Assembly: GCA_964017185.1 (NCBI GenBank)
Contig: OZ024882.1
Coordinates: 36,938,488 to 37,002,487, forward strand
From: Rugalucina vietnamica
Taxonomy: Eukaryota > Mollusca > Bivalvia > Lucinida > Lucinidae
DNA: 64,000 nt
Direction: 5' to 3'
Shown here: positions 17,585-63,700 of the stretch, in pieces
Layout of the letters: each line of letters starts with the position of its first letter
Numbering within the stretch: the first letter of the stretch is position 1
Notes under the pieces: generated by a model
The model's database searches: none
Seen by the model: only the letters and a program-made list of their open reading frames with translations
Told to the model about the DNA's origin: nothing
Program-made: the position numbers and the translations under genes

Positions 17585-19434
17585 TATGTCCCCCCAACCG
17601 TTTAGTAATTGAAGTGTAGTTACCTTGTGATATGAAGTTTTTCTAGGGAAGACACCATGTAAGGTGTGATAGTTTAAACTTGTTTTGGACCCTGTCTAAA
17701 ATTGGGTCACAATCACCAAATTCTTATAAACTCTGAACCTCCTCACAACAATGCTTCTGAGCAAGTTTGGTCAAAATCCATCAATTAGTTTACAAGATAT
17801 CGTATCGGAAAAACTAATTTCAACAGTTTTTATGGACCCGTGACCTTGGAAATTAGGTCAAGGTCATCAAAATCTAATCAACTTTGAGCCTCCTCCAAAC
17901 AATGCTTCTGTGCAAGTTTGGTCAAAATCCATCAACTGGTTTACAAGATATTGCAGTGAAAAGACTAATTTCAACATTTTTTATGGACTCGTGACCATGA
18001 AAATTAGGTCAAGGTCACCGAAATCTAATCAACTCTGAGCCTTCTCGCAACAATGCTTCTGTGCAAGTTTGGTCAAAATCCATCAATTGGTTTACAAGTT
18101 ATCGAGTTGGAAAGATTAATTTCAACATTTTTTATGGACTCGTGACCTTGAAAATTAGGTCAAGATCACCAAAATCTAATCAACTCTGAGCCTCCTCCCA
18201 ACAATGCTTCTGTGCAAGTTTGGTCAAAATCCGTCAATTGATTTACAAGATACTGCGTTGGAAAGACTAATTTCAACATTTTTTATGGACTTGTGACCTT
18301 GAAAATTAGGTCAAGGTCACCAAAATCTAGCCGACTCTGCGCCTTCTCGCAACAATGCTTCTGTACAAGTTTGGTCAAAATCCATCCATTCGTTTACAAG
18401 TTATCGCGTTGGAAAGACTAATTTTAACATTTTTTATGGACTTGTGACCTTGATTATTAGGTCAAGGTCACCAAAATATAATCAACTCTGAGCCTCCTCC
18501 CAACAATGCTTCTGTGCAAGTTTGGTCAAAATCCATTGATTGGTTTACAAGATACTGCATTGGAAAGACTAATTTCAACATTTTTTATGGACTCGTGACC
18601 TTGAAAATTAGATCAAGGTCACCAAAATCTAATCAACTCTGAGCCTTCTTGCAACAATGCTTCTGTGCAAGTTTGGTCAAAATCCATCTATTGGTTTACA
18701 AGTTATCGCGTTGGAAAGACTAATTTCAACATTTTTTATGGACTCGTGACCTTGAAAATTCGGTCAAGGTCACCAAAATCTAATCAACTCTGAGCCTCCT
18801 CCCAACAATGCTTCTGTGCAAGTTTGGTCAAAATCCATCAATAGGTTTACAAGATATTGCATTGGAAAGACTAATTTCAACAGTTTTTATGGACTCGTGA
18901 CCTTGAAAATTAGGTCAAGGTCACCGAAATCTAATCAACTCTGAGCCTCCTCCCAACAATGCCCTTGTGCAAGTTTAGTCAAAATCCATTCATTTGTTCA
19001 GAAGATATCGCGTCGGAAAACCTAATTTGATCAGTTTTCATAGGCTGGTGACCTTGAAAATTAGGTCAAGGTCACCAAAATCTAATCAACTCTGAGCCTC
19101 CTCCCAACAATGCTCTTGTGCAAGTTTGCTCAAAATCCATTCATTTGTTCAGAAGATATCGCGTCAGAAAACCTAATTTGATCAGTTTTCATGGGCTGGT
19201 GACCTTGAAAATGAGGTCAAGGTCACCAAAATCTAATCAACTCTTTCCCCCCTCCCAACCATGTATCTATGCAAGTTTGGTCAAAATCCATCCACTGGTT
19301 CAAAAGATATCGCGTAAGAAAGAAGCTACGCGGACGCGGACGCCGACGCGGACGCCGACGCTGACGCCGACGCCGACGCCGACGGGAACCGCACCAAAAA
19401 CAATATGTCCCCCACCTTCGGTTGGGGGGACATA
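17585..19434 (+). mobile_element. HP element, family 1: ~11 units of ~151 bp
   Basis: Starts TATGTCCCCCCAACCG. The core is about eleven units, marked by AACAATGCTTCTGTGCAAGT at ~151-bp spacing, each holding GTGACCTTGAAAATTAGG followed by TCAAGGTCACC. A (GACGCC)n-like tail at 19328-19384 precedes a terminal hairpin (ATGTCCCCCACC TTCG GTTGGGGGGACAT). The 3' CGGTTGGGGGGACATA is the exact complement of the 5' end. This matches the general plan of molluscan pearl/Helentron-like elements. Non-coding; ORFs over the tail are artefacts. Confidence 0.85.
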
Positions 19435-19492
19435 ATTTTGTATTTGGATTTCCCCAAATGCATATCAACTTGCCACAAAGAATGATCAACAT

Positions 19493-19706
19493 GAGTCGCG
19501 TCATGAGAAAACCAACATTTTGCTGCTTTTGCATATGCCAAAACAAAGGTGCAGATCAGTGCCTTTATTTTTACTACTAGGAAGTACAATGCCTCTTCTT
19601 TCTGAATCCAAATTTTCCAGCCTCTAGTCATATTCTGTGCTTGCACAGCTCAGTTTGTATTGGACCTGTTCAAAAACCACATTTGTTTTCTCATAATTTG
19701 TCTCAG
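19493..19706 (+). mobile_element. MITE family A, diverged copy
   Basis: Begins GAGTCGCGTCATGAGAAAAC and retains AAAACAAAGGTGCAGATCAG, but one arm of the central palindrome is lost and the right terminal repeat is badly worn. Confidence 0.65.
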
Positions 19707-20057
19707 CCTGTTTTCTCACTGTTGACAAACCATAGAGAATAGTTTCTTGGCAAAAATGCAAAAATAAATAGGAATTTTATTCTAAATATTGAAGCAAAAC
19801 CTCTGACTTAAAATATGTCTTTACTTAAATATCTAAGGTTAGAATAGTATTAGGGTCTGTTGTATAGTACAGTGCAAATGAATGAGATTGTCACAAAAAA
19901 TATGAGAAAATATGAGTTCACATACAGAAGATGAACTAATATACATATGTGGGGAGATAGCAAGATTGACAAAATGGTATATACATCTGATTTAAACAAA
20001 CAAATAATATAAACATGTATCTAAACCAAACCAAGCACTTTAAAGTGGAAAGTAAAA

Positions 20058-22038
20058 CCAGAGGACCAATGGTCCTGTAAACGCTCACCTGAGATCTGCT
20101 GCATATACCAATAAACATGTTTGAATATTATAATATTTAATCCCAGTGCAGGGGCAGATGAAGCCCTTGGACCGTTTTCTTTTTTCAGAATAATCAATAT
20201 TCTGTCCATTTGCCAATTTCTTGCTGGCTTTTCCCTTCAAATGACATTTTAACAGTTTTTCCCATTCAAATGCATGTGCAACCCATGTTGACCTTGCCAT
20301 AAACTTGGTCAAGGTCATCACAGGGTTATGATTTATATATACATTGTAGTACTTTAGCCATGGATGCTTCACGCTAAGTTTCATTGAAATCAATCAATTG
20401 GTTTCAGAGAAGGGTTTTTAACATATATGGGCATGGTGGCCATCTTGGTCATGTGACCTAGATTATTAATATACACATTGGTTCCCCCATCCTATAGATG
20501 CCTCACATAAAATTTGGCTTCAATTGGCCAAGTGGTTTCAGAGGAGAAGATGTTTGAATATTATGGTAATATACATGTATATTGCCCCGGGGTGTGGGCA
20601 TATGAGCCCTTAGGTCCATTTTTTTTTCAGAATCATTAATATTTAGTCCTACTACCCATTTCCTGCAAGATTTTCACCTCAAATGACTTTTTAAAAGTTT
20701 TCCCCATTCCAATGCATTGGCGACCTATGTTGACCTTGTCATAAAATAGGTCAAGGTCACCACAGGGTCATGATTTATATACACATTGTAGTACTTCAGC
20801 CATTGGTGCTTCATGCTAAGTTTCTTTAAAATCGGTCCACCAGATTCGGAGAAGATTTTTGAAGGGTTTTTACCATATATGGGCATGGCAGCCATCTTGG
20901 TCATGTGAACTAGATAATTTATACATGTATATACTTTAATTCCCCCATTCCAAAGATGCTTCACATAAAATTTGGCTATGATTCGCCAAGCGCTTTCAGA
21001 GGAGAAGATGTTTGAATATTATGGTAATATACATGTATATTGCCCCGGGGTGGGGGCAGATGAGCCCCTGGGGTCCAATTTTTTTCAGACTCATTAATAT
21101 TCAGTCCTACTGCCCATTTCCTGCAAGACTTTCACTTTAAATGACATTTTAAAAGTTTTCCCTATTCAAATGCATTGGCGACCTATGTTGACCTTGCCAT
21201 AAAAAAGTCAAGGTCATCACAGGGTCATGATTTATATACACATTGTAGTACTTGAGCCATCGATGCTTCATGCCAAGTTTCTTTGAAATCAATCCATTGG
21301 TTCTGGAGAAGAAGATTTTTGAAGGGTTTTTACCATATATGGGCATTGCCGCCATCTTGGTCATGTGACCTGAATTATTTATTTACTTATCGATTACCCC
21401 TTCCTATTGATGCTTCAGATAAAATTTGGCTTTGATTGGCTAAGCGGTTTCAGAGGAGATGATGTTTGAATATTATGGTAATATACATGTATATTGCCCC
21501 GGGGTGGGGGCATATGAGCCCCTGGGGTCCAATTTTTATCAGAATCATCAATATTCAGTCCTACTGCCCATTTCCTACAAGACTTTCACTTTAAATGACT
21601 TTAAATGACATTTTAAAAGTTTTCTCCATTCAAATGCATTAGCGACCTATGTTGACCTTGCTGCATAAAAAAGTCAAGGTCATCAAAGGGTCATGATTTA
21701 TATACACATTGTAGTGCTTGAGCCATGGATGCTTCATGCCAAGTTTCGTTGAAATCAGCCTACCGGTTCTTGAGAAGAAGATTTTTGAAGGGTTTTTAGC
21801 ATATATGGGCTTGGCGGCCATCTTGGTCATGTGACCTGGATTTCTTATATACACATTGGTTCCCCCTTTCTATAGATGCTTCATATAAAATTTGGCTTTG
21901 GTTGGCCAAGCAGTATCAGAGAAGAAGATCTTTGAAATTGTGGACGGACAGACGGACGACGGACGGACGGACCGACGGACGCCGGATCATGGCCATCCTA
22001 TAAGCTCACCTTGTGAGCCTAACGGCTCAGGTGAGCTA
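20058..22038 (+). mobile_element. HP element, family 2, copy a (four ~455-bp units)
   Basis: 5' end: hairpin AGGACCAATGGTCCT then CGCTCACCTGAG. Four core units, marked by TGTTGACCTTG at about 20287, 20728, 21187 and 21650, each with TTTTACCATATATGGGCATG, GCGGCCATCTTGGTCATGTG and TAAAATTTGGCTTTGATTGG. A (GACGGAC)n tail at 21945-21985 precedes the terminal hairpin (CTCACCTTGTGAGCC TAAC GGCTCAGGTGAG). Ends GAGCTAA. Non-coding. Confidence 0.85.
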
Positions 22039-22074
22039 ATAAAGATAAAAAATTTAAAAAAAAAAATGAGTTTT

Positions 22075-24345
22075 GTCATAGCATTACAATACACAGAGAT
22101 TTTTTGAGCTTTAAAAATTGAAAAATTTCAGCTGAAAAATATTTCAGCTGAAAAATTTTGATATTTTTCCTCAAAACATAGATTGTGGGTACCTGTTAGA
22201 ACCGCCTCGCCGAGGCGGTTCTAACGAGTACCCACAATCTATGTTTTGGAGCAAAAATAAGACCAGAGGACCAATGGTCCTGTAAACGCTCACCTGAGAT
22301 CTGCTGCATAATATTATACCAATAAACATGTTTGAATATTTTGGTATTTAATCCCAGTGCAGGGGCAGATGAAGCCCTTGGGCCATTTTCTTTTTACAGA
22401 ATAATCAATATTTTGTCCATTTGCCAATTTCCTGCTGGTTCTTTCCTTCAAATGACATTTTAACAGTTATTCCCATTCAAATGCATTGGCAACCCATGTT
22501 GACCTTGCCATAAACTGGGTCAAGGTCATCACAGGGTCATGATTTATATATACATTGTAGTACTTGAGCCATCGATGCTTCAAGCCAAGTTTCCTTGAAA
22601 TCAGTCCACTGGTTCCGGAGAAGAAGATTTTTGAGAGATTTTTACCATATATGGGCCTGGCGGCCATGTAACCTGGATTATTTATATACACATTGATTAT
22701 CCCATCTTATAGATGCTTCACATAAAATTTGGCTTTGATTGGCCAAGTGGTTTCAGAGGAGCAGATGTTTGAATATTATGGAGATATACATGTATATTGC
22801 CCCGGGGTGGGGGCATATGAGCCCATGTGGTCCATTTTTTGTCAGAATCATTAATAGTCAGTCCTAATGCCCATTTCCTGCAAGACTTTCACTTTAAATG
22901 ACATTTTAAAAGTTTTCCCCATTCAAATGCATTGGCGACCTATGTTGACCTTGCCATAAAATAGGTCAAGGTCATCACAGGGTCATGATATATATATACA
23001 TTGTAGTGCTTTAGCCATCGATGTTTCATGCCAAGTTTCATTGAAATTGGTCCACCGGTTCCAGAGAAAAAAATTTTTGAAGGGTTTTTACCATATATGG
23101 GCATGGCGGCCATCTTGGTCATGTGACCTGGATTATTTATAATCACATTGGTTATCCCTTCCTATTGATGCTTTACATAAAATTTGGCTTTGATTGGTCA
23201 AGCGGTTTCAGAGGTACAGACGTTTGAATATAGTGAAGATATACATGTATATTGCCCCGGGGTGGGGGCACATGAGCCCCTGGGGTCCAATTTTTTTTTC
23301 AAAATCATTAATATTCAGTCCTTCTGCCCATTTCCTGCAAGACTTTCACTTTCAATGACATTTTAAAAGTTTTCCCCATTCAAATGCATTGGCGACCTAT
23401 GTTGACCTTGCCGTAAAATAGGTCAAGGTCATCACAGGGTCATGATTTATAGTAAACATTGTAGTGCTTTAACCATCGATGCTTCATGCCAAGTTTCATT
23501 GAAATTGGTCTACCGGTTCCAGGGAAAAAGATTTTTGAAGGGTTTTTACCATATATGGGCATGGCGGCCATGTTGGTCATGTGACCTGGATTATTTATAT
23601 ATATACATTGGTTATCCCTTCCTATTGATGCTTTACATAAAATTTGGCTTCGATTGGTCAAGCTGTTTCAGAGGAGAAGACGTTTGAGTATAGTGAAGAT
23701 ATACATGTATATTGCCCCGGGGTGGGGGCACATGAGCCCCTGGGGTCCAATTTTTTTCATAATCATTAATATTCAGTCCTACTGCCCATTTCCTGCAAGA
23801 ATTTCACTTTAAATGACATTTTAAAAGTTTTCCCCATTCAAATGCATTGGTGACCTATGTTGACCTTGCTGTAAAATAGGTCAAGGTCATCACAGGGTCA
23901 TAATTTATATATACATTGTAGTGCTTGAGCCATTGATGCTTCATGCCAAGTTTCATTGAAATCGGTCCACTGGTTCGGGAGAAGAAGATTTTTGAAGGGT
24001 TTTTACCATATATGGGCATGGCGGCCATCTTGGTCATGTGACCTGGATTTCTTATATACACATTGGTTCCCCCTTCCTATAGATGCTTCATATAAAATTT
24101 GGCTTTGATTGGCCAAGCGGTTTCAGAGGAGAAGATCTTTGAAATTGTGGACGGACGACGGACGGACGACGGACGGACGCCGGATCATGGCCATCCTATA
24201 AGCTCACCTTGTGAGCCTAACGGCTCAGGTGAGCTAAAAAATAGGCATACCCCTGCATACCCAGTTTTTCTATATAAAAGTGGGGTTCAAGGGGGTATAT
24301 TTTCCACGGACATGTTTTCCTGATGGAAATTATAATAACTAATTT
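22075..24345 (+). mobile_element. Hairpin element family H, copy split by an HP element
   Basis: The left part (22075-22261) holds a near-perfect 76-bp palindrome (22173-22248) with arms AAAACATAGATTGTGGGTAC and GTTAGAACCGCCTCG, ending GCAAAAATAAGA. The right part (24237-24345) resumes with AAAAATAGGCATACCC, in line with the uninterrupted copy at 11028-11290. Confidence 0.8.
22262..24236 (+). mobile_element. HP element, family 2, copy b (four units)
   Basis: Same ends and units as copy a, with TGTTGACCTTG at about 22497, 22943, 23400 and 23855, a (GACGGACGAC)n tail at 24150-24180 and the same 3' hairpin. Comparison with the empty site at 11028-11290 shows insertion into AAG|AAAAA with at most a base or two gained, and no longer target duplication. 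Confidence 0.88.
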
Positions 24346-24414: not shown

Positions 24415-26576
24415 CCAGAGGACCATTGGTCCTGAGAACGCTCACCTGAAGCCTGATCCTGGAGTATTAAGTCATCATGAAATGACCTTGACCTTGAATA
24501 CTCACACACCTTTATTGAATTCATAAGTTGTCTGCATCTGCAAAGTTTCAGGTCTCAGGCTACAATAGTTTCAAAACCCAGTGATTTATGAGAAAACCAT
24601 AATTTTAATTTTGATATTTAAATGACTTTGGGTCAAGGTCAAGAAATGACCTTGGCCTTCATTAATTACTTACCTCAATTGACTCCATTGGTTGTCTGCA
24701 TCTAGCAACTTCCAGGTCTCAGACTGCAACAGTTTCCAAAATATCCATTGTTTTCGCCTTTTCCCGTGTAAAAGCCTATGTTTCCAAAATTGACCTTGCC
24801 GTAAAATAGGTCAAGGTCATCCTATGGTCATCATTTGATCAAACTATGATGGGCTGTAGTCCCAAATGCTACATACCAAGTTTCGCGAAAATTGGCCTGC
24901 CGGTTCTGGAGAAGAAAATTTTTGAGTGGTTTTTACCATATATGGGCGTGGCGGCCATCTTGGTAACGTGACTTGGATTTCGCGATCAAACTTTCGTCTC
25001 CCCTACCCATGGATGCTCCACATAAAATTTCACTTTGATTGGCCCATCAGTTTCAGAGAAGAAGATCTTTGAACAGTGTGTATGGACGACAAACTGGCCA
25101 AGGTCAAGAGATGACCTTGACCTAAATTAATCACATACCTTCATCTACTCCATTAGTTGTTTGCATCTACCACTTTTCAAGCATCAGGCTGCAATAGTTT
25201 TCAAAAAATCCATAGTTTTCACTTTTTTCCATGTAAAAGCCTATGTTCCCAAAATTGACATTGCCGTAAAATATGTCAAGGTCATCCTAGGGTCATCATT
25301 TTATCAAACTATGATTGGCTGGAGTCCCAGATGCTACATACTAAGTTTCATGAAAATCGGCCTGCCGGTTCTGGAGAAGAAGATTTTTGAGTGGTTTTTA
25401 CCATATATGGGCGTGGCAGCCATCTTGGTCATGTGACCTGGATTTTGCGATCAAACTTTCGTCTCCCCTACCCATGGATGCTCCACATAAAATTTCACTT
25501 TGATTGGCCCAGCAGTTTCAGAGAAGAAGACCTTTGAAAAGTGTGTATGGACGACAGACTGGCCAAGGTCAAGAGATGACCTTGACCTACATTAATCACA
25601 TACCTTCATCTACTCCGTTAGTTGTTTGCATCTACCACTTTTCAGGCATCAGGCTGCAATAGTTTTCAAAAAATCCATAGTTCTCACTTTTTCCCATGTA
25701 AAAGCCTATGTTTCCGAAATTGACATTGCCGTAAATTAGGTCAAGGTCATCCTAGGGTCATCATTTTATCAAACTATGATGGGCTAAAGCCCCAAATGCT
25801 ACATACCAAGTTTCATGAAAATCGGCCTGCCGGTTCTGGAGAAGAAGATTTTTGAGTGGTTTTTACCATATATGGGCGTATCAGCCATCTTGGTCATGTG
25901 ACCTGGATTTCGCGATCAAACTTGCATCTCCTCTACCCATGGATGCTCCACATAAAATTTCACTTTGATTGGCCCAGCAGTTTCAGAGAAGAAGATCTTT
26001 GAAAAGTGTGAATGGACGACAGACTGGCCAAGGTCAAGAGATGACCTTGACCTAAATTAATCACATACCTTCATCTACTCCATTAGTTGTTTGCATCTAC
26101 CACTTTTCAGGCCTCAGGCTGCAATAGTTTTCAAAAAATCCATAGTTTTCACTTTTTACCATGTAAAAGCCTATGTTTCCAAATTTGACCTTGCCGTAAA
26201 ATAGGTCAAGGTCATCCAAGGGTCATCATTTTATCAAACTATGATGGGCTGAAGTCCCCGATGCTACATACCAAGTTTCGTGGAATTCAGCCCACCGGTT
26301 CTGGAGAAGAAGATTTTTGAAGGGTTTTTACCATATATGGGCGTGGCGGCCATCTTGGTCATGTGACCTGGATTTCGCGATCAAACTTGAAATGCCACTA
26401 CCCAAGGAGGCTCCACATAAAATTTCAACTAGATTGGCCAAGCGGTTTCAGAGAAGAAGATCTTTGAAATTGTGGACGACGACGACGACGACGGACGGAC
26501 GACGGACGACGGACGGACGCCGGATCATGGCCATCCTATAAGCTCACCTTGTGAGCCTTCGGCTCAGGTGAGCTAA
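24415..26576 (+). mobile_element. HP element, family 2, copy c (variant; four ~467-bp units)
   Basis: Starts CCAGAGGACCATTGGTCCTG and ends with the same hairpin plus GAGCTAA. Four units are marked by AAAATTGACMTTGCCGTAAA at about 24787, 25253, 25720 and 26187. They differ clearly from copies a and b (CAAGGTCAAGAGATGACCTT spacer) but keep ATATATGGGCGTGGC and the same tail. A (GACGAC/GACGG)n stretch lies at 26472-26520. Confidence 0.85.
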
Positions 26577-26872
26577 AAACTATTAAGCAAGCAAATACCT
26601 CACAATTATAAACCATTATCATGTGAAGTCAAGCTATTTACACAATACTCGTGGTGTTTGTTATCTACAGCTCAATAAATATGGCATTTACACACATACA
26701 TGACATACATGTAGAACATGTAAAAACTACATTGTATCAGAGTATTTCTGTTTAATATTTATAACACAAAATATACAAAATTAATATACTCATCATAATC
26801 TTACATTTTCATACATTCAAAATATTAAATTGAATTATCGTTTCAAAAACAAAAAAAAAATACATACAACAA

Positions 26873-28247
26873 GTAGCCCAGGGGCAACGATCGCTCACCT
26901 GAGAGTCAACAAGTACAGTCACTGGACAAAGTAATTGGGGGTTTTACCATATATGGGTATGGTGGCCATCTTGGTCATGTGACCTTGAAACCCTACTTAC
27001 ATCAGCAGAAGAGCTCTTGTCTGGATTGTGTATCCTCTTTTCTGCCATTTTGGGTTCACGTGAAAAAATCGTCTAACAAGGTCAGGGTCCTATAATGACC
27101 CCTGGAGCGGGGCCATATTTGACGCCAGGGGCAAAATTGGCAGGATTTATGTAGAGCTCTACATGACAATGTTGTATATCAAATATACAAGCTTTGTGTC
27201 ATGCTCAGAAAAGATTTTTTCATATATTTCCATTATAAGTCTATGGTAGATAATGACATGCCTGGGGCGTGGCCTGTATGGACCCCAGGGGCACCGTTGG
27301 CAGCATTTATAAAGGAGAGGATTATTCATTGGTCAACACAACATATGAAAGATCTGGGCCATATGGTTTCGGAGAAGATTTTTTTTATGTTTTTCCCATG
27401 ACGCCCCCGGGGCGGAGCCCGTATGGACCCCAGGGGCACATTTGGCAGGATTTATAAAGAGGAACACTATACATTGCTAAAAACATAATATGAAAGCTTT
27501 GGGCCTTGTGGTTTTGGAGAAGAAGGATTTTTAAAGTTTTTCCCATGACGCCCCCGGGGCGGGGCCTGTATGAACCCCAGGGGCACGGTTGGCAGGATTT
27601 ATAAAGAGGACCACTATACATTGCTACTGACAAAATATGAAAGCTCTGGGCCTTGTGGTTTCGGAGAAGAAGATTTTTTTATGTTTTTCCCATTGTAAGT
27701 CTACCCCTGGGGCGGGGCCATTTTTGACCCCAGGGGCATGATTGGCAGGATTTATAAACAGGACCACTACACATTGCTACATACAAAATATGAAGGCTCT
27801 GGGCCATGTGGTTTCGGAGAAGAAGATTTTTTTATGTTTTGCCCCATCACGCCCCCGAGGCGGGGCCTGTATGGTCCCCAGGGGCACGGTTGGCAGGATT
27901 TATAAAGAGGACCACTATACATTGCTACACACAAAATATGAAAGGTCTGGGACTTGTGGTTTCGGAGAAGAAGATTTTTTTATGTTTTTCCCATTGTAAG
28001 TCTATGGGAGCTTATAATCTCTTGCCATGGAAACCAGAGTTCCAATCCGACCTGGCCCAAAACCTAATGCAACCTTTCCCCCTCCTCAATGATGCTTTAG
28101 ATAAAATTTGATCACTTTCGGCCTTATTGTCTTAGAGATATTTGAGTTTGAAAATGTGGACGCACGGACGCACAGACGCACGGACGGAAGCCGGCTCGAC
28201 TACTGTACTATAAGCTCACCTTGTGAGCCTTCGGCTCAGGTGAGCTA
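26873..28247 (+). mobile_element. HP element, family 3 (~150-bp units)
   Basis: The 5' end has CGCTCACCTGAGAG. The core has about six units of ~150 bp carrying GGCAGGATTTATAAAGAGGA, a CCCCAGGGGCA block and GTGGTTTCGGAGAAGAAGAT. The tail (GGACGCACGGACGCAC, 28158-28190) and 3' hairpin (CTCACCTTGTGAGCC TTC GGCTCAGGTGAG) are shared with family 2, so ends are conserved while the core differs. Confidence 0.8.
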
Positions 28248-30194: not shown

Positions 30195-30198
30195 CGCG

Positions 30199-31649: not shown

Positions 31650-31900
31650 CTGAAATATACAAAGAAAAACTATGATAGTTCTATGTTGCTTGTCCAATTG
31701 TATATCAAAACACATTTAGCTCACTTAAGCCTTAGCAGAAGGCTCATAGGTGAGCTTATAGGATGGGCATGCTCTGGTATCGTCATTGTCGTTGTTGTCA
31801 TTCACATTCTTTAAACATCTTCTCTGGAACAGCTTGGCTAGTCAAAGCCAAACTTCATCTGGAGCATCCTTAGGATGGGGGAACAAAAAGTTATATAAAC

Positions 31901-32257
31901 TAGAAAAAGTGCCTTGAGAGGCACGTATACCCCCGGCTGGTAGCCACCAAGCCCCCTTCCCTACCCCGGTTGGTAGCCAGCCCCCTTCCCTACCCCCTAC
32001 CTAAACAACCCGGCACATGCTCACCCCTGACATTGAACCTCACATTACCAATAAAAGACAGTACCCTTATCGAGTACATTTTAGAAATAAGCAGCGTAAA
32101 GTACTTTGCTTACAAACATGGGGAAGTGTAGTTTTAGAATGACATATCTATTTTAGAGCGGTATACAGAGCTGACGTGTATACCCAATCTAGGACATAAT
32201 CACGGACATTGTGGGTCAGGTCCTCAGTCCTAAATTGAAATGAAAGTAGAATGTCAT

Positions 32258-32295
<38 letters not shown>

Positions 32296-33100: not shown

Positions 33101-33235
33101 ATGATCCAGGTCAAAGGACCAAGATGGGCTACCAGGGCTATAAATATCCAAACCTTTAAAAATATTCTTCTCCAGAACCAAAAGGCTTAGGATCTTGAAA
33201 TATGGCTTGTAGCATCAGGGCCTCAAGCTATATAA

Positions 33236-51000: not shown

Positions 51001-52718
51001 AAATGGTGTTGATTTGCACCCCTCTGTTTATTCTGCTTACTTAAAACTTAACAAATAAACATTTAGATAAGCTTTTTGAATCAGAGACCATTTTCCCTTA
51101 TACTAAGATTAAGACGGTAATTTGACCACGATCTTGCATCATTGTTATGATGTTGGGTCAGAACTAAACTCGAACTTGAACTGCTATCAAAATAAAGTAA
51201 ATTCAAAAACAAGACAGTTAAGGCAGTTTATTAAACATCAAGTTCTCTTTATCATTATTTCGGCGGCCATCTTGGAAATCATCTTGCCTTTTTGTTATGA
51301 CTGGAGCATAAAAGACATAAGAGCTGTCGCAGGACAGCGTAGCTCGCCTGACTTGTGCTTTGCCACTAAATCTATTAAATCTATGACCAAAGACATTGAC
51401 TTCAATGTCACTCAGGTGGGTCGTGATGCATGGTACAGCATAAAACTTCAGACCAATATCTACCAACATGCTATTTTCAACTTGATCCATCTAGATATTT
51501 GATATAGACTTATAACCTAAAATCTAAGTCTGTGACCTTGACCACAGGTGAGTCAAGATGCTACAGCATAATAAAAGAATAATATCTAACAGCAAAGTAT
51601 CAACTAGATCCATCCATCTGTTCCAGCAATATACAGTTCAAAACACTTTAAGCAAAAGCTTTAACATAAAATTTCAAAGTCTGTGACCTTGAACTCAAGG
51701 TCACCCAGGTGGGTCATGATGGTACAGCATAAAACTTCAGACCAATATCTACCAACATGCACAGTATCAACTTGATCCATCTACATATCCAAGAGATATA
51801 GACTTATAAAAACTTTAACCAAAAACTCTAACAGAAAATTTCTAAGTCCGTAACCTTGACCTCAAGGTCACTCAGGTGGGTCATGATGGTACAGAATAAA
51901 ACGTCAGACCAATATCTACCAACATGCAAAGTATCAACCTGATCCATCAACAACTTCAAGAGATATAGACTTATAAAAACTTTAACCAAAAACTTTAACA
52001 AAAAATTTCTAAGTCCGTGACCTTGACCTCAAGGTCACCCAGGTGGGTCATGATGGTACAGCATAAAACTTCAGACCAATATCTACCAACATGCAAAGTA
52101 TCAACTTGATCCATCCACAACTTCAAGAGATATAGACTCATAAAAACTTTAACCAAAAACTTTAACATTTTGAGCAACGCCGACGCCGACGCCGACGCTA
52201 ACGCCAACGCCGACGCCGACGCCGGGGTGACTGCAATAGCTCTTCCTGTACTTTCGTACAGGCGAGCTAATAAACAAAACTAAATTATGGTGTTTTTGTT
52301 AATAATAACACAAAATGAGCATTTTAAACACAAAACATTGAATATGTGCAACTCTGGGACGCTTTTTTCTTGTTTATGCCAACCATCTTGGACGCCATCT
52401 TGATTTTTGATTTTTTCAAACAATTCATGATGCCGTTTTTGAACTGGCATGGTCTGATGAACCAGAAGAAGACAGTATGGACATTAAGAGAAGTGAGCTT
52501 TTTGCTTCACATACATGTATTATGTTGATTTTTGCACTATTTTCCGCCATTTGACGGCCATTTTGAATTTTTGAATATTTCAAAATGCTCAATGATGCCA
52601 AGGTGGCATCACTCGGATTCTTCATCTGAAAGGTATCAAGAAGTAAAATCCATAAAAAAATTTTATGCGGCACACATTTCCAGGTCACAGGCCAAATCCA
52701 TGTTTGGCAACTGGACTA
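48008..52718. mobile_element. 4.7-kb inverted-repeat element inserted in the MITE
   Basis: Ends TAGTCCAGTAGCCA and the complement TGGCAACTGGACTA are inverted and flanked by TTT on both sides; deletion with one TTT restores the MITE. The arms continue with a degraded inverted match (both carry GATGCCACC or its relative, then ATGGCG/CGGCCATTTTG motifs). The left arm contains repeated AAGATGGCGG/ATGGCCGCC units about 170-300 bp apart. No transposase frame is seen. An HP element (51320-52269) sits inside the right arm. Confidence 0.75.
51320..52269 (+). mobile_element. HP element, family 6 (tandem core, GACGCC tail, 3' hairpin)
   Basis: The 5' part holds a small hairpin (CTGTCGCAGGACAG) followed by TAGCTCGCCTG. 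The core has about five units of ~165 bp, each with a TGACCTYAAGGTCAC-like segment and GGTGGGTCATGATGGTACAG. A (GACGCC)n stretch follows at about 52178-52225. The 3' end is a hairpin CTGTACTTTCGTACAG then GCGAGCTA, whose CAGGCGAGCTA is the complement of the 5' TAGCTCGCCTG. Non-coding. Confidence 0.75.
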
Positions 52719-53022: not shown

Positions 53023-55181
53023 CTGTAAAACAGGATTAATACTAGAAATTGGCTGCAAGCAAGGCTTTCAGTATACCCCCCGCAAAATTATCTGGAGCTG
53101 GCCAATAACTTCCTAAGTCAAACATGCAGAAAATTTGTCAAAGATATCTTTTCAGCATTATAATTCTTCATGTAAATCCTCAGTATGCCAGTCACATCTA
53201 TAAGATATTAAAAGAATATATTGAAAGCTTGAGGTTGATTTCATTATTGTATATAAGCAATGGTCAAGAAATGGCTATGTTGAAAAATGATGTAAATTTG
53301 TCAAAAATCACTTTTTCAGTATTATAATCATTCATGCACATCTTCAATATGTGTGGAACATGTCTGCAAAGTATTGAAAAGAAATACTGAAAGTCCTATG
53401 AGGAGTTGATTTCACAAACTATGCATTACCAACCATTTTTGTATATACTATATACACAATGGTAAAAAAATGGCTATGTTAAAAATGCTGTAAATTTGTC
53501 AGAAATTAATTTTTCAGTATTATAATTCTTCATGCACATCTTCAATATGAGTGGAACATGTCTGCAAAGTATTGAAAAGAAATAGTGAAAGCCCTTGGAG
53601 GAGTTGATTTCACAAAGTAAGCACTACCAACCATTATTGCATATAAGCAATGGTCAAACATGACTATGTTGAAAATGCTGTAAATTTGTCAAAACTTTTT
53701 TTTTCATCATTATAATTCTTCATGCACATCTTCAATATGAGTGAAACATGTCTGCAAAGTATTGAAAAGAAATACTGAAAGCCCTAGGAGAAGTTATTTC
53801 ACAAAACATGCACTACCAACCATTATTGTATAAGCAATGGTAAAAAAAATGGCTATGTTAAAAATTGCAGTAAATTTGTCAAAAATTATTTTTTCAGCAT
53901 TATAATTCTTCATGCACATCTTCATTATGTGTGGAACATATCTGCAAAGTATTGAAAAGAAATACTGAAAGCCCTAGGAGGAGTTGATTTCACAAACTAT
54001 GCACTACCAATCATTATTGTATATAAGCAATGGTCAAAAATGGCTATGTTGAAAAATGTAAATTTGTCAAAAATTATTTTTTCATCATATCAATTCTTAA
54101 TGCACTTCTTCAATATGTGTGGAACATGTCTGCAAAGTATTGAAAAGAAATACTGAAAGCCCTAGGAGGAGTTGATTTCATAAACTATGCACCACCAACC
54201 ATTGTTGAATATGGCAATTATTGAAAATTGGCTAAGTTCAAAATGCTGTAAATTTGTCAAAATTCATTTCTTCTGCATAATACTTCTTCATGCATATCTT
54301 CAATATCTCTGGCACATATCTGCAAAGTATCAAAAGAGAATATTGAAAGCTGTAGGAGGAATTGATTTCACAAAGTATGCACTATTAGCACTATGGCAAA
54401 CATTCTATGTATAGGTTTAATAGGTGAGACGCTAGATTCTGTATCTACCGTATTTAATGAAATCGCACAACACCCTCCACATACTTTGTTTGCAGTATGC
54501 AATTGGTCCATTGGTCATCCTAGATGAGTTCTAGGCACGTTGTCGCCCCGGCAAGTGGTGCACAATATTTCTGGAGCTCGTTACATAAGTTACATGTTCA
54601 AAATATATTTGTACCAACAAAATAGCGAAACCTACTATGCTCCACCCACATTAATCATGCAACAACACTAATTATATCACGTACTACAACAATTTAACGA
54701 ACATGCTTTATGATCTTTAAAAGTTGAAATTAGACATTATATTGTGTTACAAACGTTACTTCTATATCTATGGCGTGAAAATAGGGGTTTGGGTTCAAAA
54801 ACGTTTTTCTTTTGGCATTTCTTTCTTCATATTCCAAAAACGATAGGTCCTTTCTTACTGACCAAGAGTTCAACTTGGCTATTACACAAAATCATATATT
54901 TATATTAAATATTTAATTTATTTTATCTAAATAATTTAACATTTCCTAAAGGTACCGCCGTATGCTGTAACATTTGAAAAGTAGGCGTTTCAACAAAATG
55001 AATAACTGTTATATGTTTCTGTAAATTATTTAGTTCTATTTACACACCCTATGATAAATACATGTTTAGTGTGCTAAAATATACAACCTGTGACTTGCAA
55101 GTATGCTCATGGTAACGTATGTAACACCTTAATGTTCAAACATGGGTAGATTTCATTTTGGTGATTATAAATGTATATACA

Positions 55182-55381
55182 GTGAGCCGCTTCATGCGAA
55201 AACCAGATTCTTCCTATATGAAACAAAGATGCAGTTACTGCACAGCTGATCAGCACACTTGTTTACTCTACACAGATAATTCAAACTTCTTCTTAAATCC
55301 GAAACTTCAAGCGTCTAAATTCTGTGACTGTGTAGAAGGAATATTGACGGAAGAGGGGTTTTCGCGCGCTGCGGCTCACAT
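55182..55381 (+). mobile_element. MITE family A, diverged copy
   Basis: Ends GAGCCGCTTCATGCGAAAAC and GCGCTGCGGCTC, with the partial core GCACAGCTGATCAGCAC. It lies inside the 4.3-kb inverted-repeat element at 54464-58783, so it inserted later. Confidence 0.65.
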
Positions 55382-55540
55382 GAAAATGGTCTCACATAAT
55401 TATCTGCAAAGGTTTTCGCATAGAACACAGTAAGGTGTTTGAAATATGTTGACCCACTGGTGACTTGTCAGTATGCTCATGGTAACGTATGTAACACCAT
55501 TTTCATATAGGGCACTGTAAGTTATATATTATGAGTAAGT

Positions 55541-55740
55541 GACCCATCGTTAAAGCGTCCGCTCCTGATTGCGAGTTTGTGTTGTTCGACCTCTTCGGTG
55601 CCATGTTGTGTCCTTGAACAAGATCCACGATCCACGATGAATCTTTCACATGTGCGAACTTAATGACTTAGGAAGACAAAGACTTCGCAAATATCACACT
55701 GACAGCTGCATCCAACTAGATGCGGATATTATCCTCAAAC
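55541..55740 (+). repeat. tRNA-derived SINE (probable)
   Basis: The head AAGTGACCCATCGTTAAAGC plus GTCCGCTCCTGATTGCGAG resembles a tRNA-like A-box region, and GTTGTTCGACCTC is a usable B box (consensus GWTCRANNC). The following GTGTCCTTGAACAAGATCC resembles conserved SINE bodies. The A box is worn, so it is likely inactive. Confidence 0.55.
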
Positions 55741-56685
55741 TCCTGGACCCATTTATTTTATGATATATGTATATATATACAGCTTGTGTGCGCCTTTTGA
55801 AACTATTGATTTGATGTAGTGATTGATATATACCTGTAGAGTAAATCCATCAGAGCGGATGAACAAGAAAGAAGGACATTATCTAGCCCTGCGACACCAG
55901 TTCCCCGGGAGTGGCAAAATCCAATGTAAAGCAGTAATAACAAAAATGTGAATTTCTTGAGGGCCCTCGGTGTGAAATCCGAACATAGAACAGGATGTGC
56001 AAACAACGTGTATACGTTTTACACGAAAATGATTTCTTGCCAGGGATGATGTAACTGCACTTTAGACAATGAAGACACAGATACGCGAATTTTCATAAAA
56101 TCACGATGCCTCTGACGGTACAATCATCTGAATCAGATGTCTTGGTTTTATGCTGCTGTCTATTCTAGCCAAATGATTGCAATACATTATTGTTCCACGC
56201 TGGAAATCCTGAAAAAGTACGATACTAGCAGTCTGTCGTTTTGAGCAAGCCTTGATGTCCTGTCAGACACTCTCGAACATTTTATATCTTTAAGAAAATA
56301 GAAGTTATGACTACACAATAAGGTAGTTTAGGTGAGACTCCACACAATGGCATTGGTAAAACGAAAGCTTGGAATGTTGCTGAGAAAAACGATCAATCAC
56401 AAACTACCTTGTGCAAACAGACGATAACACTCCCCACAGCACATAAGAAGGTGTACGAAAAACATTTTGCCGATTCTGTTCATCTGCTGGGCAATCTGGT
56501 TCAATCGTAAATAGTGTCCGTCACTTGTTATGTTGCCATTAGCGCTACACAAATGAAAATGTACCACCAAAGCATGGTCGTTTGATGACACATTTATAAC
56601 GTGAAAACTTCAAAAACATGTTTTCAGCCTCAGCAGAAACGCTCAACCGTATCAGCCTAAGCAGAATCCCTCAGAAGGTTGGTCG

Positions 56686-57118
56686 GGTGGGAATATGGGC
56701 CCCGCTAATCGGGTCCTTAAGAAATAGATGGGCTTCTTTTGCCTCCAGGCATAGCTTATACGTTACTTAGTGACCATCTTATTACTGGTTAACCGCTCAG
56801 GTCCGAGCCTGACCAGGAAAAGTGTTTTAAAATCAAACCATCCTATGTATTTAGTATAAGCCGTGGTGGCTTACTTGGGTGGTTATATTTAAAGCATTGT
56901 TTGTATGTCATGGCATCCGATTTTCGGGCAAAAGTCCCATAAAATGGAGTCAACGTCTCAATATCACAATAGCTGTTGACTAGGCTGCTAAGCATTAACT
57001 CAAAATCAAACAAAACAACCGCATCAGGCAATGTCTGAAACATCAATGGTACTTGTATTGAAGCAGTGCTCATGGCCAAGAACTGAACAGTTTTTGTTCC
57101 GTTTAACGTCCCTTTCAA
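56686..57118 (-). repeat. Dispersed repeat family S, copy 2
   Basis: Inverse orientation relative to 34410-34740: GGTGGGAATATGGGCCCCGC at the left, GGGCAAAAGTCCCATAAAAT toward the right. Lies inside the 54464-58783 element. Confidence 0.7.
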
Positions 57119-59198
57119 TATTATTTCAGCTCATATGAGATGGGCCAACCGGAAGGTGGGGCAAAAACGGGAGGAATAACCACCTGGCACACGCGCAAGC
57201 AGAACTTGGCTTGTCTCACATGTGCCCCGAACCCAGACAAAATGAATTAGCATGCGCAGAGTTGTGCTTTTGTATGGCCGGCGAGTCATTTCAATATCCG
57301 GAAATCGGAAAACAATCTTAAGGTGACGATTATTATATCTTATTACTATTTGTTTTCCTTAGGTTTTTACACCTAAAATTTTAAGTGAAAAATGAAATGT
57401 GTTACATACGTTACCATTAAATCGCCCGTCACCCGCATTGATATATGCTTACTAATATTGGCAAGCTTTGTGAAAGGTAACTTATGAAATAGTGACGGAC
57501 GGTGTTGATAATGTCATTTCATAACACTGGATACTAATAATGGTGTAAAACATGCTTCGGGATTTTGTGGTTTGGGTGTGCGCGCTTTAAGTTCACTGAC
57601 AACCGGATTACACTCTTGAATATTTGCTTTATCTTATATGATTTCTAAATTAGTGCTAAATCATAATTACATACAGCGATGAGCATTCTATCGGCATTAA
57701 AATCATTAAAACTGATTTTTGATATTCAATAATTATGTGTTACATGCGTTACCATATTTGCCAATCAAAAGTACACATTTCTGGCAAAGCAGTGAGCATT
57801 CAACTTAAAGAAGGCATATATGTTATTGATCTACCACAAGATGACTGTATATATTTTTCTTCTTTTCTTCAAACTTTACTGTACATAGTTGACTTTAAAC
57901 ACATTATTCTTTCATAATCTGAAGTGAGTTACTGTGGATTATATGCAATAACTTTCGACAAGGAATGACATGATGATTAGTTTTTTTTTTTGTTTTTTTT
58001 TCAGGTTTGTAAAAGAAAAGGAATACGTGTCTTTTAGACAGGTGTATCTAAAGTATAAATGTGCAAAGAAAAGTATATTAAAATAGCTTACTGTTCTGTT
58101 ATTAAAGTCTGAACAGTCTGTTTTGAAAATGTAACATACGTAACACCATCGATGAATATATTATGTGACTAAAAGTATCAACACATGTGCCAGTAACACT
58201 CTTTCATCAGATGACATTAATATATTTAGGTTTGGAATTTATTTTAGAGATTAATAGTGCATTTTTTAAACTTAGAGTATATTTCTGTTTTGAATGGGTA
58301 ACATACGACGTGCGTAACGGCTTCTGGAGGGCAAATGCCCCGTACCATTGGGCGACAACGTGCATAGAAAATCTTTATATTGATCAACGAATCCACCCGT
58401 AGTGTATTAAAAGTGAAATTCGTAAAGAGAAGTATATTAAAATAGCTTACTGTTCTGTAATTAACATTTACATAGGCTGGTTTGAAAATGTAACATACGT
58501 AACACCATCGATGCATGAAAATGATAAAGTATATCAATATATGTGCCCCTAACATTCTTTCATCAGATGATATTGATACATTTAGGTTTGGAATTTAGAT
58601 TAGAGATTCATAGTGTATTTTACAAACTTAGAGCACATTTCTGGTTTGAATGGGTAACATACGTAACGGCTTCTGGAGGACAAATGCACCATATCACAGG
58701 GCGACAACGTGCCTAGAAGCTCTTTATATTGATCAAAGAAGCCACCCATAGTATCAAACCTAGTATGTGGAGGGTGTTGTGCGAAACGAAAAATTTCCCT
58801 ACCCACCGTCTCCTCTATAAAAAGTCCCATAACTCTTGCAAAACTGACCCTTTGGCCCCTAAATTCATATCACACGTGTTGTCTAATGGTGAAGGTGTGT
58901 TGAAAATTTGAAGAACATCGGGCAAATACTACTTAAGTTATTTAGCAAAGATGTCAAAATGTTGACGGAATGACTGAATCACAGAATCACGGAATGACGG
59001 ACAGGCTGAAAACAGTATACCCCCCTAAAACTTCGTTTTGCGGGGGGTATAATTATAATGTTACCAGTATACAATTAAATATTAAATTACTAGACAATTT
59101 CCTCAAAACTGTGCATAAAGAACTGTGCTATAATTTGGAGTAAACTTTATTTCGTCCATATAAAATAAATCTAAAGACTTTTGGAGTATATCACGGAC

Positions 59199-59696: not shown

Positions 59697-60789
59697 CTGG
59701 AATAAGTATCATTACTAACAATTTCTTTATTCTAGGAGGATCATACTAAATAATACAAGCTCTCCATGATATATTAGACCAGTATTATTTGAAAGTCAAT
59801 GGTATAGTCTGTTGGTTGATTTGCAGCCTTGGATAAACCAAAGAACCTATTTAACAGTACATATGTGGCTAAAACTAGAAATTGGCTGCAAGCAAGGCTT
59901 TCAGTATACCCCCGCAAAATTATCTGAAGCTGGCCAATAACTTCCTAAGTCAAATATGCAGAAAATTTGTCAAAGATATCTTTTCAGCATTATAAACCTT
60001 CATGTACACTCCCGGTAAAAAAATAACAACATATTTCGCGTTTCTCCGCAACCATGGCAAACGCGAAATTTTTATTTCTCGGAGAAACACCGCGAAATAA
60101 GCCAGGTACACGAAATAGGCTGCGCGAAATTTCGCGGTGTTTCTTGGTGAAATTTCTCGGTGTTTCTCCGAGAAAGGTAATTACCTGGATTTATCGATCA
60201 AACTCTTTTTCTCGGAGTTTCTCGGAGGAATTTAAAAGACAAGTACATGTCTATAATTTTTGAATAAATATAAAACAATTAATTAAAAAAATAAGCATTT
60301 GCAAGTATGCAACTTGTAGATGTTACGTATTTGTTTAAATGGCATATAATCCACATTATATTCTTCAAAATATACATCTACATGTTTGTTATACCTTGTC
60401 TAGAATTGCGGTTGTGTGGAACATTGTAAATGTACATGTACGAGTATATACAGTCAAGAAATTTATTTGTCTTAAATTTTTATTTCGCTCTTTCTTTAAA
60501 TCTGATTGATATCATTAGACAAAAAATGCATTATGTGCAACAAATACTTTTGTATAGGAAAAACTGTTTGGATATGTCGCACACTGCATCAAATTAAGTG
60601 GCTGAAATATACTAACTTTATACTAATATACTAAATTTAAGTAACTTAAAGGAATTAATGATTTTTCTTTTCAGTTCAGAAAAATCATAACACGTTACAG
60701 ACGTATAGGTTATAACTTGAATGTTATGCGACAGTCTGCATGCTTAGTTTTTAACCCAATCATGGTTGATAACTATGCTGCCTTCTTTA

Positions 60790-61505
60790 ATTGCACGCCG
60801 GTGGGTCGGGCGTCAGACTCTATGATGGCCCCGACATAAAGCTATTCATTTTAGTTGGTTGGGGCCGGAGCTTCTTGTCTGTTGCTTGGCCCACCGGGGT
60901 CCAACTGGTGTTTTTTTGTTTTGCTCCGGAGTTAGTAGGTTGTTCGGCGCCCAGGGATCTCCATCGTCGGGCAGCTTACTCAGTCTGTGAGTCCTGGTTT
61001 TTGATTCATCAGGATGTTTATCATGATTTATTTGTTTGTTCTTGATGATTCATTGACTAGTTAGAGATTCACGACGAGGACCGAATAACTAACTAAATGT
61101 TATAAACCACCGCAGAAGCTGAGGGTGAGGTTATGGCCATGTAAAACCGGTTTAAGCCCGCCAGTAACTTTGTGTTACTGATTGTTCCAAGTCGATGCTT
61201 CTGTGGTGGTTCTTTTTGTTTTGTGTCTTGGTGTTTAAAAAAGTTTTTTTGCGCTGTTGGCGCCTTATGTGTGTTTTCATATTTTTGGTTTAGTTAAGGT
61301 AACTGAGTGGCCACCTACTGGGAAAATAGCTGCTCATTCGGCTTACGATATGTTTCATGGTATAAGTACCTGATTGTTAGTTTGGTTTTTTCCCACCTCG
61401 GTTTTTGGAGTGGGAATCTTTTTCTGATTGCGCCTTTTCCTGATCTTTGCCTACTTGTACCTTTTCTTTACATGTACATGAATTGGGGGCAATGTCGGTT
61501 ATGAT
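60790..61505 (+). repeat. Dispersed repeat family R, longest copy
   Basis: The distal ~430 bp (from GAGGACCGAATAACTAACTA) match 10594-10990 throughout. The 84-residue ORF at 60791-61045 (with VGWGRSFLSVAWPTG) lies in the upstream part, but there is no recognised domain. Confidence 0.65.
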
Positions 61506-62089
61506 AGTATTTTTATTTTAATTTTCTTTTACGCGTTAGGAAACAACATCGAGATATGAATGTGGATGCATCAAACATACATACTCAAGTCTCTGCAGTT
61601 TATAGCGTGTCGGATGCTGTTTCGGTAGTTTTTGTAACTGACGGGTTTACAAATACGAATGTTGTGTAGAACGTCAGGACATCCCAAGCTTGTACGGTAC
61701 CACAAATCGGCGGAAACGTAACGACATAACCGTGGCTGAGGACGTTAGTAACAGCAATATTGCACCCCGATTTTTCTATTCATGCACATGCATAGTTTCT
61801 ATACTTAGACGGTCCCGGTAATTTTTAAAACTGACACCAAAATATAAGGTCATGCATTTGTTTTCGTGTACAATGAGTGTATTCGTTCCTGCCTTTTACG
61901 AAAACATTAATAATGGTTAAGTTTTAATGCGATTTAACGTGTAAATAAGATGTAAGATATCCATACGCCAGTTGAGCTGTGTTCTGGTCGAGCTGCACAT
62001 GTTTTTCGGAAACGATCAGGATGTGCGATTTTTGGAACATGTGCACTTATTAGATCGAATACGGTGAAAAAAAAATCATATCTATACAT

Positions 62090-62237
62090 CTTGATCAGTC
62101 ACAGAAACAGGCTAGAGGCTTGAAATTTTGGCTAGAAATGAAAGATGACTTGTTCTATCCGAGTAGTGAAAACAAAGGTGTTGGTCAGATGTCCAGTTAC
62201 CGCACAGCTGATCTGCGCCTTTGTTTTCGCCTAAGAA
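62090..62237 (-). mobile_element. MITE family A, truncated inverted copy
   Basis: The complement matches family A from the hairpin arm (CGCCTTTGTTTTCGCC at its right side) through the CTCTAGCC segment; the terminal repeats are not visible. It lies inside the 60009-63036 element. Confidence 0.6.
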
Positions 62238-63700
62238 TTTTGGTAGTATGCAGTGGATCATTTAGTAATTATTTAAAATCCTTATCTGCAGGTTGATCGG
62301 GTCAATAAACTTTTTACAAAAATAGCATGTTCCATAAGTTGACGTCACAATGTGATAAAATTATGCCATTTCATTCTACATGCACGTTTCCATAGCTCGA
62401 CACTACAGCCCGGGCCAGAAAACATTTATTTCATTACAATATGAATTCAAGAATGCGCAAAATGGTCACCTATTATACTCATACATGTTAATGGCCTATT
62501 GCTTTTATGTTTCCTAACTCAAACAAATGAAACTGTAACACGTCATTTACTTGGAGAAAGGCATAATTGAGATAAAACAAAGTACTACTTAATTTGTTTG
62601 TCAAATGCGAGTCAAGTCATGCCTGACCAACCGTAACGGAAACCAGTGAAGAAGATTGTGGAATGTTTGCTCAGTAATTAATGTAACTTATTAAAACGTG
62701 TCAAACTGTTAGAGGTGTCATATACAAAAACACTTATACTGATTATTTAAATGTTTAAAACTTCTTTAATTAGTAAAAATAAGGTAAAATCGATTTTCAT
62801 AATCGGACACAATATTTCTCCGAGAAACTCCGCGAACAGGTAAATCTGGACTTACCTGTGTTCACCGGTAAATACCTGCGGTCGCGGTGAAATTTCTTGG
62901 TGTTTTTCCGAGAAATCGAAATGAACGAAACGCGAAATACCTAAATGAAAAGAGAAATTTAGCGTTGTTTCTCCGAGAAAAATAGCTTAGGGTCCTCCGA
63001 GAAAAGAGAAATGTGTTGTTGATTTTTTACCGGGACTGTACATCCCCAGTATGCCAGTCACATCTATAAGATATTAAAAGAATATATTGAAAGCTTGAGG
63101 TTGATTTCACTGTATGCACTTTGATCATTGTTTATCATGAGAAATGGTAAAAATTGGCTAAGTTAAATAAAAGCTGTAAATTTGTCAAAAATTAAATTTT
63201 CAGCATGAAAATTATTCATGCACATCTAAAATATATCTGGAACAAATCTACAAAGAATTTAAAAGAAACACTGAAAGCCCTAGGAGGAGTTGATTTCACA
63301 AAGTATGCAATACCAACCATTATTGTATAAAAGCAATGGTCAAAAAATGGCTATGTTGAAAAATGATGTAAATTTGCCAAATATCACTTTTTCAGTATTA
63401 TAATTATTCATGCACATCTTCAATATGTGTGGAACATGTCTGCAAAGTATTGAAAAGAAATACTAAAAGCCCTAGGAGAAGTTGATTTCACAAACCATTA
63501 TTGTATATAAGCAATGGTCAAAAAATGGCTATGTTAAAAAATGCTGTAAATTTGTCAAAAATTATTTTTTCAGTATTATAATTCTTCATGCACATCTTCA
63601 ATATGTGAGGAACATGTCTGCAAAGTATTGAAAAGAAATACTGAAAGCCCTTGGAGGAGTTGATTTCACAAAGTATGCACTACCAACCATTACTGTATAT

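Follow-up and report, generated by a model that had tools for sequence, protein, structure and literature searches.

A 64,000-nt stretch of the lucinid bivalve Rugalucina vietnamica (assembly GCA_964017185.1, contig OZ024882.1, positions 36,938,488 to 37,002,487 of the forward strand; hereafter, the window) carries ten elements between window positions 17552 and 63703, called here A, B1, B2, C, D, E, F, G, H1, and H2, each built around a tandem array with units of 147 to 466 bp. Judged by their structure, these families are very probably Helentron-associated interspersed elements (HINEs), gene-less relatives of Helentrons that would be moved in trans by a Helentron Rep/helicase/endonuclease through rolling-circle (peel-and-paste) transposition. 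For one family, H, the same genome holds a gene-bearing Helentron with the same ends, short-repeat tract, and array, which is likely the engine of that family. As befits non-autonomous elements, the HINEs of the window appear to have no coding capacity: the whole window contains only 12 stop-to-stop frames of 110 to 144 aa, two of which overlap A, one G, and one an insert within H1.

A shared anatomy and its direction

On the plus strand, nine of the ten elements run in the order tandem core, short GAC-rich tract, bulged hairpin, H2 being without its hairpin end. A first-pass annotation of this DNA had proposed such a common end architecture, and it is indeed present in all nine elements that have a hairpin end. 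Equally borne out was its proposal that an arm of the hairpin is the complement of the opposite end. In all eight complete elements (A, B1, B2, C, D, E, G, and H1; F lacks the end opposite the hairpin and thus stands outside this test), the two are complementary over 10 to 16 nt, and at most 5 of 1,000 shuffles of each element did as well (P ≤ 0.005); an earlier run with rough element limits gave a similar result (0 to 6 of 500 shuffles).

The direction of the elements, in contrast, had to be reversed. Read on the minus strand, they present a 5′ subterminal inverted repeat (subTIR) within the bulged hairpin, a spacer of 9 to 25 nt, a (GTC...)n microsatellite, the tandem array, a 3′ subTIR, and a palindrome. 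The HINE plan laid out in the accessible text of PMC7492417 consists of a 5′ subTIR, a complementary inverted repeat (IR), a microsatellite, an array, a 3′ subTIR, and a palindrome. Because the window elements fit this plan when read on the minus strand, the hairpin and tract are the 5′ end of the element, and the end that the first-pass annotation had labeled 5′ is the 3′ end. Its "tail," a GAC-rich tract that is GTC on the top strand, and its "terminal" hairpin therefore mark the start.

A GTC-type microsatellite lies in the 5′ module of all nine elements with a hairpin end, with units (on the top strand) of (GTCC/GTCG)n in B to D, GTCGGC in A and G, GTCA in F, GTCATTCC in H, and mainly GTTC in E. 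It does not directly adjoin the hairpin, as had been supposed, given the spacer between them, though the order is kept throughout; the microsatellite positions and gaps of G and H were read by eye, the script having run past the tract in G and missed the one in H. Within a family the gap is nearly constant. Among 20 pairings of B-type ends, drawn from 18 of 20 loci fetched (L017 and L027, with one end only, were dropped, and L018 contributes two pairings with a common 3′ end), the offset of the tract from the hairpin start was 56 in 16, and 53, 58, and 63 in three others, with one unmatched.

The hairpin itself has a common form. The 5′ 42 nt fold at energies 4.5 to 6.6 standard deviations below those of 300 shuffles in 8/8 complete elements, and 7/7 folded sequences consist of two stems, an outer and an inner one, separated by an asymmetric bulge or internal loop and closed by a loop of 3 to 4 nt. 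By a single-stem measure used in the earlier run, the hairpins of E and H1 were unremarkable (121 and 180 of 500 shuffles). The loop reads C(GAA)G or C(GAAA)G on the top strand in A, C/D, F, G, and H, and B, C, and D have one type of 5′ end in common. At the other end, the palindrome that follows the 3′ subTIR, absent from the first-pass annotation, is exemplified by AGGACCATTGGTCCT in B and GTGCCTCTCAAGGCAC in E. These palindromes are short, with P values of 0.009 to 0.037 against shuffles for B1, B2, C, E, G, and H1; in the earlier run, with rough limits for several elements and a wider region, they were weaker (33 to 340 of 500 shuffles as good). The terminal letters are CTGG in B and C and CTAG in E and H.

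A gene-bearing Helentron of family H

A search of the genome (1.09 Gb, 47 contigs) with PF14214 yielded 409 first-look candidates, of which 150 were scored; all 150 were above the cut-off, many of them in frames of more than 2,000 aa. A parallel search with the H 3′ module gave 1,245 first-look candidates, and among the 40 scored, one copy lay 6 kb from a long Rep frame. When the 150 scored Rep matches were compared with the listed copies of A, B, and H (39 each), two H pairs fell within 25 kb, where about 0.27 would be expected per family, and one of the two is the locus that we call C2 (L059-L061).

In HINE orientation, the C2 locus opens with an H HINE array that is broken by TTATACCCCCCGCAAAACGAAGTTTTAGGGGGGTATACTG; a GTCATTCC tract and a 191-bp array of about seven copies follow. 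Downstream of the array, a frame of 2,821 aa, open from stop to stop, is followed by a nested B HINE and then by GCGGGGGGTATTCTGTAAGCCTTGCTGGCAGCCAATTTCTAG, beyond which the host H array picks up again. The 2,435-aa part of this frame in L059 matches the Pfam domains Helitron_like_N (7e-29), PIF1 (6e-26), and Exo_endo_phos (4e-10). Rep, PIF1 helicase, and C-terminal endonuclease thus lie in one frame, as in Helentrons. Its Rep motif, IEFQQRGSPHLH (RGSPHLH), has an S between G and P, which the available part of PMC4067079 gives as a Helentron signature in Rep motif 2. Three more proteins of this class (L041, L042, and L043) are 94 to 97% identical over the parts compared.

The noncoding parts agree as well. 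The C2 Helentron starts at an H-type 5′ hairpin, and it and window element H1 are 90% identical over the 5′ 237 bp and 92% over the 3′ 49 bp. In a second copy, C3, the sequence examined picks up about 19 nt into the element; its microsatellite, array, and unique 5′ region form one continuous stretch, collinear with that of C2 and 85% identical to it over 521 bp outside the array. The arrays hold 6.8 to 7.8 copies of 191 bp in C2 and at least 4.8 in C3; the 8-bp microsatellite is present in 4.9 and 7.9 copies, respectively.

One could imagine that the C2 locus is a chance nest, with an H HINE at each end of a Helentron that has different termini of its own. H is abundant, as the 1,245 candidates attest, nesting is common, and an F-type HINE did sit upstream of a Helentron of another class (L036) in just this manner. 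We nevertheless consider a nest improbable at C2. An H-type 3′ end follows the open reading frame (ORF) in 4/4 H-class copies among the loci fetched (L059, L075, L078, and L079), with flanks that differ after CTAG; the host H HINE is broken at the hairpin and at CTAG; the stretch from array to ORF contains no H 3′ end; and in C3, too, microsatellite, array, and unique 5′ region run on without a break and in the order seen at C2. The H Helentron entered its host array as one unit. In this family the tandem array belongs to the autonomous element, and the most likely origin of H-type HINEs is accordingly gene loss and not capture of an array. Of the Rep/helicase element with matching ends for which the first-pass annotation had called, there is thus one for H, complete with endonuclease, and none was found for A to G.

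Insertion between Ts

All 20 B-type pairings, which include 19 distinct 3′ ends, have a T just after the 3′ end and TTA just before the hairpin. An empty foldback element at L077 (CCTATTTTT^CTTATTTTTGC), set against the filled sites, places the insertion at T^T, and the ATTTTT that flanks the filled B site on both sides is already there in the empty foldback. In L082 lies an F-type copy complete at both ends, for which L083 offers the matching empty site, somewhat diverged and likewise in a T run, and the H Helentron breaks the H HINE array in a T run (by eye). At these three sites with an empty counterpart (B/foldback, L082/L083, and the H Helentron), no target duplication was found beyond the ambiguous Ts.

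The last result bears on an older reading, that these are cut-and-paste elements, namely miniature inverted-repeat transposable elements (MITEs) with terminal inverted repeats (TIRs), as pearl and DINE-1 were once labeled. The ends are partly inverted-complementary, a 2-bp TT duplication was read for DINE-1 in 2008 (in the portion of PMC2374699 available), and within T runs such a duplication could not be told from Ts borne by the element. We regard this reading as very unlikely: the duplications typical of cut-and-paste transposition, which the first-pass annotation had named as evidence that would count against its own proposal, were seen at none of the three sites; the inverted repeats are subterminal and asymmetric, with a hairpin at one end and a palindrome at the other; and the autonomous element that matches them codes for a protein with Rep, helicase, and endonuclease domains. 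Just as hard to credit is the assignment to canonical Helitrons or Helitron2, for while several elements end in CTRR (CTGG or CTAG), which is the canonical Helitron 3′ end according to the accessible text of PMC4067079, their 5′ end is T(T)A with a subTIR hairpin (TTA/TAG) and not TC, they insert in T runs and not at A^T, and the H partner has both the S signature and a C-terminal endonuclease domain, which Helitron2 is described as lacking in the part of the literature at hand.

The foldback carrying B was encountered repeatedly, at window positions 22164-22256 and 24240-24300 and in L009, L010, L012, L013, L019, and L021-L026. The same spot in it hosts the B insertion in 9/20 pairings by exact string and in 11 by eye. 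These B copies are most likely copies of one insertion event, and B probably owes some of its abundance to amplification of the foldback that carries it and not to its own. In L015 (reverse strand, ~970-3993), two B-type HINEs stand head to tail, the 3′ CTCTGG of one abutting TTTAGCTCACC, an arrangement that rolling-circle tandems or an insertion in the terminal T run would produce.

Relatedness of the array cores

The first-pass annotation spoke of seven unrelated cores, and in this it was mistaken. When the unit consensus sequences were compared by same-strand local alignment (45 pairs, 60 shuffles each, with pairs of z over 3.5 listed), B and C gave z of 94 to 104, B and D 7 to 14, C and D 14, and F and H 7 to 8. 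Weaker pairs were E and G (z of 6), A and B1 (5.8), B1 and G (5.0), A and E (4.2), and A and B2 (3.8). With every comparison made in the strand sense set by the ends, the cores of B, C, and D are clearly related, those of F and H weakly so, and those of A and E, as well as of E and G, marginally. A gapless motif common to all cores beat shuffles but was made up mostly of AGGTCA-like words and was not used.

The array units of A (17 matches), B (4 + 4), C (7), and G (5) contain TCAAGGTCA, of which there are 44 in the window. We take this word to resemble a monomeric nuclear-receptor site; if the resemblance holds, HINEs could scatter such sites.

Other families and the weight of the evidence

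Several results weigh against assigning all of these families to Helentrons, or against details of the case for H. The 3′ palindromes of A (P = 0.056) and D (P = 0.104) are near chance. The insertion site of E in the window could not be placed within 3 bp, and the same test gave no site for F. A repeat scan at B ends returned 7-nt matches in four foldback copies, which the empty site explains, and 0 to 4 nt elsewhere. The 5′ end was sought in three other H-class copies and seen in C3 alone; at C1 and C10, the upstream stretches read had no similarity to it. In C2, substitutions affect the palindrome of the 3′ end, for which a slice extending 2 nt too far gave P = 0.9. For a relative 59% identical to the H class (L039), the 0.8 kb that was read (L080) contained no H end. 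None of the families A to G could be given a partner, and among 14 Helitron/Helentron 3′-side stretches, only L075, of the H class, ends in the 3′ end of a window family, the terminus not having been located in most of the others. An apparent 5′ end, complete with microsatellite and F array, made a Helentron of the L036 class look like a partner for F; this module is missing from the corresponding place upstream of the other copy, however, and it possesses its own 3′ end, which makes it a separate HINE. Lastly, the B-type 3′ end in L074 is internal and not a terminus.

The L036 class was rejected as a partner of B too: both copies carry the B-type 3′ end internally and, at 702/705 positions, remain identical through it as far as another end. 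The copies of this class are 99% identical over Rep and the 3′ side and only 68 to 88% identical, in patches, upstream. The internal B-type 3′ end (L074, 421-467, and L076) lies upstream of the real 3′ end of the class, which has an A-like layout and CTAG; this looks like termination bypass giving an element a new end. In both copies of yet another class, the region downstream of the Rep frame contains a B-type 5′ hairpin end in degenerate form (L062, ~2150-2192, and the matching part of L063).

The genome holds several Helitron/Helentron protein classes, 25 to 59% identical to the H class where compared. The earlier idea of one Helentron-like machinery stands as regards its kind, given the HINE structure, insertion in T runs without duplication, and the H partner; as a single machine it does not stand, there being several protein classes, of which only H is tied to a family. 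Helitron/Helentron-type frames reach 3,542 aa in several diverged classes, and family A, with 954 first-look candidates, had all 40 scored copies at 97 to 100% identity (the window's own copy included). Long frames and near-identical copies together suggest recent activity.

A possible mechanism and the role of the GTC tract

If these families are HINEs, we infer that a Helentron Rep would recognize the 5′ end, T(T)A with the subTIR in a bulged hairpin and the GTC microsatellite nearby, and nick it, so that replication could start there. A strand would be displaced through the array until termination at the 3′ end, marked by the subTIR partner, the palindrome, and often CTRR, and the single strand would then be inserted between Ts without target duplication. 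The first-pass annotation had suggested that the tail is possibly generated or required during rolling-circle replication; a tail made at the close of that process is at odds with tract and hairpin forming the start of the element. The correction of direction thus matters for mechanism, as it puts the GTC tract beside the hairpin at the start instead of at the terminus.

It is a fair hypothesis that the GTC tract functions in origin recognition, because GTCY tracts are reported at the same place elsewhere, in the 5′ block of DINE-1 (PMC2374699, as far as its text was available) and in oysters (PMC7492417, likewise). They also occur in moth elements, known here from a cited title that does not give their place in the element (PMC4067079, PMC9659126).

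A bolder version can be put forward only tentatively. In all window families with a hairpin and in the H Helentron, a GTC-core tract lies close inside the 5′ hairpin, at a nearly fixed 9 to 25 nt, and on the same strand, while hairpin sequence and core vary. Parvoviruses and circoviruses have short tandem Rep-binding repeats beside their origin hairpins. By analogy, though we think it rather doubtful, the "microsatellite" might be a functional, iteron-like Rep-binding repeat of a rolling-circle origin, its unit variants might match Rep lineages, and the C(GAA)G or C(GAAA)G loop might mark the strand that becomes single-stranded. The word "iteron" is absent from the literature matches listed, 20 of 400.

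The elements of the window

The ten elements all lie on the minus strand. HINE A (17552..19435) has its 5′ hairpin at 19404-19434, a GTCGGC microsatellite at 19328-19384, a 151-bp array at 17698-19323, and its 3′ subTIR and palindrome at ~17569-17600. HINE B1 (20058..22038) has a 5′ hairpin at 22001-22038, (GTCC/GTCG)n, a 466-bp array at 20180-21943, and its 3′ end at 20058; B2 (22263..24236), of the same family and nested in the foldback element, has its hairpin at 24199-24236 and array at 22362-24143. HINE C (24415..26575; hairpin, 26539-26575) combines B-type ends with a 465-bp array related to that of B, and HINE D (26870..28247; hairpin, 28211-28247) a B-type 5′ end with a 147-bp array and a divergent 3′ palindrome.

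An old B-like HINE in the opposite orientation (plus strand, 31716..34400, right limit approximate), with its 5′ hairpin end at 31716, hosts both E and F. HINE E (31900..33101) has a hairpin at 33070-33100, (GTTC)n, a 179-bp array at 32632-32981, and a 3′ palindrome with a CTAG end at 31900; a second E copy is a fragment (46200..46649, left limit approximate, minus strand) in which the 5′ hairpin end is present. HINE F (33230..34021, start approximate) is the copy without a 3′ end, with a hairpin at 33987-34021, (GTCA)n, and a 191-bp array at 33236-33775. HINE G (51301..52270) has its hairpin at 52237-52269, a GTCGGC microsatellite at 52177-52224, a 167-bp array at 51588-52167, and a 3′ palindrome of the form GCTGTC-loop-GACAGC.

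HINE H1 (53042..59052) has a hairpin at 59016-59051, a microsatellite of the H type, a 190-bp array at 53242-54384, and a CTAG 3′ end at 53042. It is split at 54420-58818 by a 4.4-kb TIR element whose inverted ends are short (ATAG..GAGACG) and which is probably flanked by a duplicated TA (by eye). HINE H2 (59875..63703, right limit approximate) has its 3′ end at 59875, an array to ~63699, and no 5′ end; it is split at ~60008-63037 by a 3-kb TIR element bounded by ACTCCCGGT/ACCGGGACT, with GTAC as its probable 4-bp duplication (by eye). Farther out, a B-type 3′ end stands as a fragment in the opposite orientation (1720..1755, plus strand), and positions 13290-13430 and 14400-16510 hold dense palindromic TTCCGCATCATGCGGAA repeats, partly in tandem, with periods of 21 and 42.

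Comparison with known systems

Tandem-repeat HINEs spread satellite-like DNA in bivalves and flies, and for bivalves the engine was missing. The gene-bearing Helentron with the ends, microsatellite, and array of family H, its 2,821-aa frame open, makes both the origin of the array and the role of the GTC tract directly testable. Among the titles and abstract openings listed, with subscription journals and Repbase outside the search, none ties a mollusc tandem-repeat HINE to an autonomous Helentron, and five element sequences sought in papers were not found there. For the oyster, the accessible text of PMC7992393 reports that no autonomous Helitron was seen and judges the elements likely inactive.

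The plan of the window elements matches those published for DINE-1 of flies and Cg_HINE of oysters. Drosophila DINE-1, as described in the available parts of PMC2374699 and PMC4067079, has subTIRs, a partial inverted repeat beside the 5′ subTIR, variable central repeats, a GTCY-rich microsatellite in the 5′ block, a 3′ hairpin, and TT insertion, and Helentron partners were found for three. The window elements differ in belonging to another phylum, in array units of 147 to 466 bp, and in varying microsatellite units (GTCC, GTCGGC, GTCA, GTCATTCC, and GTTC). Pearl and the CvA, CvE, and CvG elements of bivalves, likened here by description, similarly set end modules around tandem cores, and pearl was later refiled as a non-autonomous Helentron (PMC7492417 and PMC11136912, in the portions accessible).

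Closest is Cg_HINE of the Pacific oyster. According to the text of PMC7492417 that was available, it has a 5′ subTIR with a complementary IR, a satellite-like array, and a 3′ subTIR with a palindrome, as well as a GTCY/GTCC/GTCK microsatellite in several elements, oligo-T insertion sites without target duplication, and families with related ends and different arrays. It differs in that the ten autonomous Repbase elements with the Helentron-type motif known to that study could not be related to its HINEs. Set beside Cg_HINE by description and not by sequence, family H is distinguished by its tie to a gene-bearing element that carries the array itself.

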